This document shows, piece after piece, positions 26,718-28,281 of a DNA stretch of 36,418 nucleotides. Each line of letters begins with the position of its first letter. Positions within the stretch are counted from its first letter, which is position 1. A program made the position numbers and the translations under genes. Source of the stretch: Candidatus Nomurabacteria bacterium. Its GTDB lineage: Bacteria; Patescibacteriota; Minisyncoccia; Phycocordibacterales; UBA9973. The notes beneath the pieces are model-generated. The model had not been told where the DNA came from. It did no database searches and saw nothing but the letters and a program-made list of their open reading frames with translations. The stretch spans positions 1 through 36,418 of the forward strand of contig CALRET010000003.1 of NCBI GenBank assembly GCA_943356375.1, read 5' to 3'.

Positions 26718-27045
26718 CGCGGCCAACCGGGCTCGAACCGGCAACCTCTCACGTGCACTAAATCCAATATTTTCATAAAGGCGTGGACTATATCTTTACC
26801 AATAGGTGTAGAGTTCCCTTCGCCGAGAATACTCGGCATAAGTGTTCGCTACGCTCCCTTAGGTACTCCGGTATCTAGTCTCTACGGCGCCCCCGACCGT
26901 ATGTCGGGGTTCCCTCGGTATTCGCATATCCGTCACATGACGAACTTAGCCTCCACCGATATCCCAGAGAGTTTCAATCTGCCCTTTCGACAGAAAGCTG
27001 CACGAATCTACAGGCGAGTGCTCTAACCAGTTGAGCTATGGCCGC
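26718..27045 (-). tRNA. tRNA-Asp(GUC) interrupted by a group I intron; exons 27045-27010 and 26755-26718
   Basis: Joined exons: GCGGCCATAGCTCAACTGGTTAGAGCACTCGCCTGT|CACGTGAGAGGTTGCCGGTTCGAGCCCGGTTGGCCGCG; loop CTGTCAC and G73 are typical of tRNA-Asp. Confidence 0.9.
26756..27009 (-). mobile_element. Group I self-splicing intron (~254 nt, IC3-like) in the tRNA-Asp anticodon
   Basis: P1: exon CUGU pairs with intron GCAG with U.G at the splice site; R GTAGAGACTAGA; CCTAAGG; S AAAGATATAGTCCA; intron ends in G. Confidence 0.9.
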
Positions 27046-27722
27046 AAATGTTTAAACTTTTCAAAAATTACCCTCTTTCTCTTGAGATACAGTATAGGTA
27101 AATCTTTGACCATACCATTATACATAAAATCATATAATTTCAAAGAGTCTTTGGCGCTGAATTGCAAACGGGAAAAATTTCCTTTTGCTGTATATAAGGA
27201 TCCTCCCACTACGCCATGAATACGAAGTCTTTCGTGTATATCATGTAAAAATCTATAAGAACAAGAAGTAAACATTGTCTGCAACCCGAGTAAGGGAATT
27301 TTTCTTGATTTATGTAAAAATCCAACCCATACATTTCCATCTCCATCAAAATATCCCCTAATGAAATCAGGAAAATATTTTTTCGAAATATATGGTACCG
27401 CTAAACTTTTTGTTTTATTTTCTGAAAATCCAATTGCTCTTAAATCATTACACATCTCTATACTACCAATCTGTAACCGATATTGTGTCTTCTCAGTACG
27501 ATTTTTTCTTTTCCGAACACTGATTGCGTGATTTGATCCGATAATTTTTCTGATAGAAAAAAGTAGATTTCTATCTGTAATTTGAATACACCAAAATTGC
27601 CCGCCTCGTTTATTTACCGTAATATATCCGTCTGCAGCAAAAAATCCGACTACGTATGCCATGGTACCCGTCCATTTTTTAAAAAAATTCTTATTCACCT
27701 TTTTATATACAGGCATACACAC
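27036..27722 (-). CDS. LAGLIDADG homing endonuclease (two-motif, 228 aa)
   Basis: VVGFFAADGYITV and FIRGYFDGDGNVWV motifs; stop TAG lies at tRNA-Asp nt 8-10. Confidence 0.9.
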   Translation of the reverse strand: MCMPVYKKVNKNFFKKWTGTMAYVVGFFAADGYITVNKRGGQFWCIQITDRNLLFSIRKIIGSNHAISVRKRKNRTEKTQYRLQIGSIEMCNDLRAIGFSENKTKSLAVPYISKKYFPDFIRGYFDGDGNVWVGFLHKSRKIPLLGLQTMFTSCSYRFLHDIHERLRIHGVVGGSLYTAKGNFSRLQFSAKDSLKLYDFMYNGMVKDLPILYLKRKRVIFEKFKHLRP

Positions 27723-27791
27723 ATACTAGCATGTGACAGGAAAATATACTAACCATACACCCGAACAATATTGGAGAAAAAATAAGAAATG

Positions 27792-27865
27792 TGTCGACGG
27801 GTGGAATCGAACCACCGACCTTGGCTTTATGAGTGCCACGCTCTAACCGTCTGAGCTACGCCGAC
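27792..27865 (-). tRNA. tRNA-Met(CAU), elongator type (or Ile2)
   Basis: GTCGGCG...CGTCGAC acceptor, loop CTCATAA, T-arm GGTGGTTCGATTCCACC, A73. Confidence 0.85.
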
Positions 27866-27918: not shown

Positions 27919-28281
27919 TTATTTTCTCCGTTTGAAAGTCCGTATTCTATGACAGTTTGCACATACGAGTTCACATTTTTCAATTTCTTTCTTCACTTTA
28001 TCCATATTTGATGTTTGTTGGTAAAATGTGGAAATATTAAATTCTTTGTTATTACCTATATGATCAAATTCTAAGACTTCAGGATATTCCTTCCCCATAA
28101 ACCCACAGTCGGTACATTTATTATTCTGTTTATAATCTAAAATGAAATCAGAAATCTTTTTTTTAATTCTGTCAACATATCCTATATGCTTTTCTCTGTT
28201 CTTGGGATACCAAATTTCCCGCATATATTTCTTATGACGTTCTTTCCTTTTTGTTATATCTTTATAGGGCATAATACTCAT
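27919..28281 (-). CDS. HNH endonuclease
   Basis: CTDCGFMGKEYPEVLEFDHIGNNKEFNIS...CELVCANCHRIRTFKRRK, HNH with CxxC pairs. Confidence 0.85.
   Translation of the reverse strand: MSIMPYKDITKRKERHKKYMREIWYPKNREKHIGYVDRIKKKISDFILDYKQNNKCTDCGFMGKEYPEVLEFDHIGNNKEFNISTFYQQTSNMDKVKKEIEKCELVCANCHRIRTFKRRK

Follow-up and report, generated by a model that had tools for sequence, protein, structure and literature searches.

Why does an endonuclease gene in a bacterial genome of the Patescibacteria run into a tRNA gene that is itself split by an intron without an ORF? The question is raised by the window analysed here, a stretch of 36,418 nucleotides from a Candidatus Nomurabacteria bacterium whose 657-kb assembly is 90.8% complete and carries the ORF in a single copy. 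An earlier note had described a LAGLIDADG ORF that lies upstream of tRNA-Asp, rather than in its intron, and takes its stop codon from the tRNA. This overlap was borne out: the ORF, read on the minus strand from 27722 to 27036, ends with ...CAT TTG CGG CCA TAG, has no stop codon before the tRNA and terminates at the UAG inside it, nucleotide 1 of the tRNA being position 27045 and the stop codon (27038–27036) tRNA nucleotides 8–10. The split tRNA gene is missed by ARAGORN at default settings and is called as tRNA-Asp(GTC) with a 254-nt intron when introns are allowed (locus L001). In the direction of reading, the locus comprises:

27791–27865, minus strand: tRNA-Met(CAU), called by ARAGORN, the upstream neighbour of the Asp-type element
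27733–27754, minus strand: GGTTAG-N8-CCTGTCAC in the ORF promoter region, resembling an operator and copying the putative tRNA-Asp target (0 mismatches)
27036–27716, minus strand: LAGLIDADG endonuclease ORF with two motifs, read from the likely start ATG at 27716 (Pfam, D31/D128, AF2 model, PDB folds)
27117–27122, minus strand: TATAAT, codons Y201–N202, a possible promoter for the downstream tRNA (codon conservation)
27010–27045, minus strand: tRNA-Asp 5′ exon, nucleotide 1 to U35, overlapped by the ORF at 27036–27045
26756–27009, minus strand: 254-nt intron without an ORF, probably of group I, separating U35 from C36 of the anticodon (RF00028, 35.3 bits)
26718–26755, minus strand: tRNA-Asp 3′ exon, C36 to discriminator G73 (ARAGORN with introns allowed)

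The ORF encodes 226–228 amino acids, depending on whether it starts at 27716 or 27722; ATG 27716 is the more likely start than GTG 27722, since M3 is nearly invariant among the homologues. The tRNA-Asp 5′ exon of the window contains GGTTAGAGC (27028–27020) and CCTGT. The order with tRNA-Met upstream is common to most Asp-type loci, in which tRNA-Asp follows the ORF, and to gene-less genomes, where it marks the empty site.

The protein has the features of an intact LAGLIDADG enzyme. It matches Pfam LAGLIDADG_3 in two stretches (39.1 bits), an NCBIfam search yielding no match near its cut-offs, and both catalytic aspartates, D31 and D128, show no variation in alignments of 54 and of 24 homologues. 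Its AF2 model (pLDDT 93.8) has I-AniI as the top Foldseek match and resembles I-AniI, I-DmoI and I-Tsp061I, the last with Z 18.4 and an rmsd of 3.1 over 188 aligned residues. The two motifs, the catalytic acidic residues and the fold are those of the family, and the ORF lies outside any intron or intein, that is, it is free-standing.

Searches with the window protein gave matches in 29 of 100 related genomes and at 59 loci of a genome collection, where the informative titles name Patescibacteria groups except for one bin labelled Atribacteria. By profile search, the family is present in 106 of the 297 genomes of the order and, across the phylum at E ≤ 1e-20, in 31 of 286 genomes. Pooling gave 198 loci, 159 of them distinct, and at 151 of these 159 a tRNA gene on the same strand lies directly downstream: Asp in 76 cases (31 intron-split), Leu-GAG in 46, Cys in 11, Leu-UAG in eight, Leu-CAG in four, Lys in three, Tyr in two and Ser in one. 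Three of the eight loci without a downstream tRNA are at contig ends; two intact homologues without one (L278 and L283) may be retargeted or stranded copies. Among the phylum-search loci, some of which duplicate earlier ones, 23 of 27 adjoin a tRNA gene, adding Leu-UAA and Phe. Viral LAGLIDADG relatives served as a control: only one of 80 (kept of 488; identity 28–39%) has a tRNA neighbour, and a viral origin was set aside on these grounds. In the protein tree, the Asp-type members form one clade (SH-aLRT 97), as do the Cys-type members (SH-aLRT 99), and the tRNA-type labels require eight changes, close to the minimum possible of seven and far from the mean of 63.7 for shuffled labels; proteins shorter than 195 amino acids were excluded from the tree as well as from the stop, promoter and D-arm counts given below. 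The “Lys” member L285, which lies 220 nt from its tRNA, is nested in the Leu-UAG clade.

The tie to a particular tRNA extends to the promoter region, where a promoter-like element upstream of the ORF copies the stretch of the neighbouring tRNA from D-loop to anticodon loop. At Asp-type loci, GGTTAGTATAATNTCCTGTCACG..TATAAT precedes the start codon, the copy combining the two constant parts of tRNA-Asp, GGTTAG of the D-loop and CCTGTCAC of the anticodon loop, spaced as in the tRNA itself; at Leu-GAG loci, the copy is GGTAGACGC..CTTGAGG and at Cys loci GGTAA-N9-CTGCAA on the opposite strand. With motifs picked post hoc, after inspection of the loci, and tRNA genes masked, the Asp motif (≤ 3 mismatches) was found at 51 of 71 Asp-type loci and none of 68 loci of other types, a recognisable copy being absent at the remaining 20. 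For the Leu-GAG motif (≤ 4 mismatches), matches were seen at 34 of the 46 Leu-GAG loci, at 3 of the 11 loci of other Leu types and at none of the 82 Asp and Cys loci, and the Cys motif (≤ 1 mismatch) is found reversed at 8 of 11 Cys loci and nowhere else. The spacer is 8 in 50 of the 51 Asp matches and 6 in 33 of the 34 Leu-GAG matches, one longer than in tRNA-Leu genes. Besides the other tRNA types, dinucleotide shuffles and gene-less regions served as controls: shuffles matched at most 0.25 loci per set, and Met–Asp intergenic regions without the gene contained the Asp motif in 1 of 68 cases, at three mismatches. Judged by sequence alone, the element is a target-like stretch at the promoter of an endonuclease, as in an operator. 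The reversed orientation of the Cys copy favours a putative binding site over a simple leftover of insertion.

General-similarity tests of the promoter copy offer weak support for type matching. When the 122-nt upstream stretches were aligned to 12 tRNA types by Smith–Waterman, their own type came first for 36 of 71 Asp, 29 of 46 Leu-GAG, 2 of 11 Cys, 1 of 8 Leu-UAG and 0 of 2 Leu-CAG loci; the upstream tRNA-Met genes and the replaced centre confuse the comparison. A two-block score, which is a maximum over many references, placed the own type strictly best at 42 of 71 Asp (worse at 20), 23 of 46 Leu-GAG (worse at 11), 3 of 11 Cys (worse at 3), 2 of 8 Leu-UAG (worse at 4) and 0 of 2 Leu-CAG loci (worse at 1). 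The Leu-CAG-type loci L024 and L230 carry a long remnant of a tRNA-Leu 5′ half (GTGGCGGAATTGGTATACGC...CAG) upstream of the ORF at the place expected for the operator, a hint that operators may have begun as tRNA duplications.

The form that is copied in the promoter is rare in the tRNA genes of the carriers themselves. The canonical form GGTTAGAGC-N5-CYTGT is present in 57 of 68 intronless tRNA-Asp genes of gene-less genomes, which were found with a model built from the carriers' tRNAs and taken by rank, so that divergent or split ones may be missed, compared with 4 of 43 intronless loci with the gene (L038, L055, L061 and L075; Fisher 1.8e-15, ancestry ignored). Thirty of the 43 have non-canonical forms (GGTTAGTAGC, GGTTCAGAGC, GGTCNAAAGC, GGCTAGAAC and others), and a type with a shorter D-loop, GGT-AGAGC, is found in 9 of 43 with and 7 of 68 without the gene. 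Of the 28 carrier loci with an intron-split tRNA-Asp, 16 keep the canonical D-arm, versus the 4 of 43 at intronless loci (P = 2.2e-5); on the tree, with only three independent pairs on supported branches, this contrast is tentative. A pattern search over the 297 genomes avoids the bias of the carrier model; counting split or missing tRNAs as non-canonical and, as negative for type, the 17 of 106 genomes that had a profile match and no typed locus, it found the Asp target form in 2 of 42 carriers versus 145 of 255 others and the Leu-GAG target form in 3 of 41 carriers versus 79 of 256 others.

Both depletions persist when labels are permuted within families (Asp: 2 of 27 vs 86 of 128, P = 5e-5, 19 informative families; Leu-GAG: 2 of 35 vs 30 of 85, P = 0.005). 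As cross controls, the Asp gene was compared with the Leu target, which was not significant (P = 0.14), and the Leu gene with the Asp target, which was weakly positive (P = 0.022) and means that some shared effect remains. Within one genus, the tRNA-Asp genes of carrier L174 (G045) and non-carrier L096 (G037) differ by a single base, an extra T in the D-loop of the former. The carrier's own target allele thus usually appears without the copied form, which would let it escape cutting. A separate lineage of tRNA-Asp genes (L033, L056, L057 and L151–L157) has the T-arm GGGGTCAGCACC without the usual TTC and, in the genes read, always the shorter D-loop.

The intron of the window scores below the RF00028 gathering score of 50, and introns at the same site in relatives pass it at three of the five loci scanned (L078, L010 and L031 with 82.5, 82.2 and 50.8 bits). 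Inserted at U35/C36, it divides the putative half-site CCTGTCAC. Intron and ORF co-occur in relatives: of the 15 carriers of an Asp-type gene among the 100 genomes, 7 are known to have the intron, versus at least 3 of the 85 others (P = 3.8e-5), the latter a lower bound because 22 genomes were scanned for the intron, three of them positive controls. The three gene-less genomes with the intron are G073, G082 and G088. On the endonuclease tree, the intron state changes at least 14 times among 71 rows, so intron and endonuclease are separable, and 43 of the 71 Asp-type loci are without an intron and have an altered tRNA D-arm instead. The proposal of collaborative homing between the adjacent endonuclease and the ORF-less intron therefore stands in part: in silico, the adjacent tRNA-Asp is the presumed target, the intron splits it and co-occurs with the gene, but the proposal is too narrow for partners that are separable and for the intronless majority with altered D-arms. 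ARAGORN also calls introns of 200–250 nt in tRNA-Leu(CAA) and tRNA-Met genes of relatives (L031, L047, L009, L048, L056 and L071), one of which (L031, 2288–2492) is supported by RF00028.

U8-A9-G10 is a common tRNA sequence. The stop codon falls on nucleotides 8–10 in 48 of 71 Asp-type ORFs, elsewhere in the tRNA in 16 and before it in 7; it lies before the tRNA in 41 of 46 Leu-GAG-type ORFs and inside it in 8 of 11 Cys-type ORFs, and the ends of the homologues use three reading frames. The abutment on the tRNA is conserved and the exact stop position is not, although among Asp-type ORFs the overlap goes beyond chance. The suggestion that RNase P cleavage would leave a nonstop mRNA and make endonuclease output self-limiting found no support: the stop position varies across the family, a stop codon of their own is the rule among Leu-type members, a promoter-like element stands before the ORF itself and, in the Asp type, a TATAAT within the ORF precedes the tRNA. 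This TATAAT, which in the window is separated from the tRNA by about 71 nt, is spelled by the codons of Y201–N202, which in the aligned Asp-type columns are TAT in 70 of 71 and AAT in 58 of 58 cases, compared with TAT at 55–86% for other conserved Tyr codons and AAT at 71–90% for other conserved Asn codons. The promoter of the Asp-type tRNA is thus probably located inside the ORF. Given the ORF's own promoter-like element and the constrained TATAAT, ORF and tRNA are likely to be two separate transcripts. An internal promoter is proposed for the Asp type only, because a TATAAT within 150 nt before the tRNA is found at 9 of 46 Leu-GAG loci and at none of the 19 Cys and Leu-UAG loci. Remnants of the ORF 3′ end are detectable in gene-less genomes, the stretch before tRNA-Asp resembling the ORF end above all 200 shuffles in 11 of 66, and some of these (L127, L136 and L137) retain a TTGAAA..TATAAT portion near the tRNA, which would fit loss of the gene with its end kept as a promoter.

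Taken together, we consider it likely that this is a free-standing gene for a LAGLIDADG homing endonuclease whose target is the neighbouring tRNA gene, that an operator mimicking the target mediates autoregulation and that the tRNA allele next to it owes its immunity to an intron or to recoding of the D-arm; the endonuclease gene would then probably be selfish. We infer binding, cutting, homing or transfer, repression and promoter use from the architecture, the intact catalytic residues, the type-matched promoter copies, the rarity of the copied tRNA form in hosts and the remnants left after loss. The protein would recognise two invariant half-sites of the tRNA-Asp gene, GGTTAG in the D-loop and CCTGTCAC in the anticodon loop, within a stretch of about 22 bp, and pass over the anticodon stem that varies between them. 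Alleles of tRNA-Asp with the full site would be cut, and break repair templated by the donor would transfer both the immune version of the tRNA and, because it adjoins the cut, the abutting endonuclease gene. The donor would be protected by having a tRNA of its own without the full site, through a group I intron in the anticodon half, as in the window, or through a recoded D-arm; immunity would fall on the D-arm or an intron because the anticodon loop is fixed by decoding. Both states, intron-split and D-arm-altered tRNAs, are present. The copy of the target at the promoter has a changed centre, at which the protein would bind without cutting and so repress its own gene, as I-TevI does, while the tRNA would be transcribed from the TATAAT box within the ORF. 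A further generalisation is tentative, and we would sooner doubt it than assert it: endonuclease and rewritten tRNA allele, the latter as antidote, might form the unit of a self-immunising tRNA drive that spreads altered D-arms and split anticodon loops through the Patescibacteria, in which case much of the odd tRNA-Asp and tRNA-Leu diversity would have been shaped by attack and loss of the immune tRNA in the presence of the enzyme would be harmful or lethal.

Shared ancestry could account for some of these associations if some lineages had co-inherited gene, intron and odd D-arms and cutting did not link the three. The occurrence of the GGT-AGAGC tRNA type with and without the gene and the weakly positive control of Leu gene and Asp target (P = 0.022) fit this view, but the within-family permutation for the own target is strong (P = 5e-5, 19 informative families), the control of Asp gene and Leu target is not significant (P = 0.14), the same-genus pair L174/L096 differs by a single base and type-matched promoter copies are not predicted, leaving ancestry alone an improbable explanation. 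Slightly less probable again is a domesticated, WhiA-like LAGLIDADG regulator that binds promoter and tRNA gene and couples its own level to tRNA transcription, with no cutting. Such a protein would suit the tRNA-stretch copy in the promoter, and the structures matched by fold include WhiA bound to RNA polymerase (Z 15.5, 9% identity); a pure regulator would, however, have no need of catalytic aspartates that are invariant in 54 and 24 aligned proteins, the patchy presence (29 of 100 genomes) and the remnants speak against it, and the carriers' loss of the copied tRNA form would go unexplained.

The self-immunity pattern would suit any nuclease with this target, including one that serves the host by destroying incoming DNA with canonical tRNA genes while the altered tRNA keeps the host immune. 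PADLOC, however, returned only its homing-endonuclease models and one weak Cas6b match, and patchiness and remnants suit a selfish element better, so that we hold a host-serving nuclease to be very unlikely; on the PADLOC result, a known defence system was set aside. Least credible of all is a maturase that helps the tRNA intron to splice, as I-AniI does for its own intron, even though the fold matches include I-AniI and the bI3 maturase, and gene and intron co-occur (7 of 15 vs at least 3 of 85): the neighbouring tRNA is intronless at 43 of 71 Asp-type loci and in the Leu-GAG and Cys types, and three introns were found without the gene.

A homing endonuclease that targets the adjacent tRNA gene and represses itself has partial precedents. 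A known cyanobacterial endonuclease cuts a tRNA gene near the anticodon; it shares this kind of target with the present family and differs in being encoded inside the tRNA intron. As described for phage T4 (PMC2988022), the operator of I-TevI resembles the homing site (15 of 20 nt alike), overlaps the enzyme's own promoter and is bound equally well, cutting being about 100-fold lower. The present family, known here from sequence, likewise has a target-resembling element at the endonuclease promoter, but I-TevI is a GIY-YIG enzyme within the intron of a protein gene, whereas here a LAGLIDADG ORF lies outside the intron and the promoter copy tracks the tRNA type over several clades. SegB of phage T4 is, by the same account, a free-standing homing endonuclease among tRNA genes; it is a phage GIY-YIG enzyme with its target in a tRNA intergenic region (PMC2988022), unlike a chromosomal LAGLIDADG family with its presumed target within the tRNA gene. 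Collaborative homing, e.g. by mobE, also combines an endonuclease outside an ORF-less intron with a target split by that intron (PMC3984707; PMC2988022), as presumed for the window, whereas about 60% of the Asp-type loci are intronless with the D-arm altered instead. Patescibacteria are also known to have LAGLIDADG homing endonucleases in I-ShaI and other CPR rRNA-intron enzymes, one of which was shown to cleave, but these are encoded within rRNA insertions (PMC11270868, in the main text of which “tRNA” is absent).

Free-standing homing, collaborative homing and operator mimicry are thus each described already (PMC2988022; PMC3984707). In the openly licensed literature we found no paper on tRNA-abutting LAGLIDADG genes in Patescibacteria, nor on tRNA-type-specific promoter copies or D-arm changes as immunity. 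The present loci would constitute a phylum-wide chromosomal family of probable homing endonucleases that reveal their target through the copy in their own promoter, and immunity would come from an essential tRNA gene, not from a methylase or an inserted element alone. They offer a possible explanation for ORF-less tRNA introns and altered D-arms, provide many natural pairs of nuclease and target with changed specificity, and make the route from free-standing endonuclease to mobile intron testable.

Further tRNA-linked oddities lie nearby or in relatives. In the window, a small HNH-like ORF (27919–28281, minus strand) is situated between two tRNA-Met genes, and its relatives from other genomes (L405–L407) lie inside ARAGORN-called introns (about 550 nt) of tRNA-His, tRNA-Asn and tRNA-Thr; it may represent a second tRNA-linked endonuclease family. 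At L065 (after 3661), a 140-nt stretch whose start repeats the first nine bases of the tRNA separates ORF and tRNA-Asp, and L050, at a contig end, has tandem copies of the tRNA 5′ end, repeats that are perhaps break-repair scars or assembly faults.
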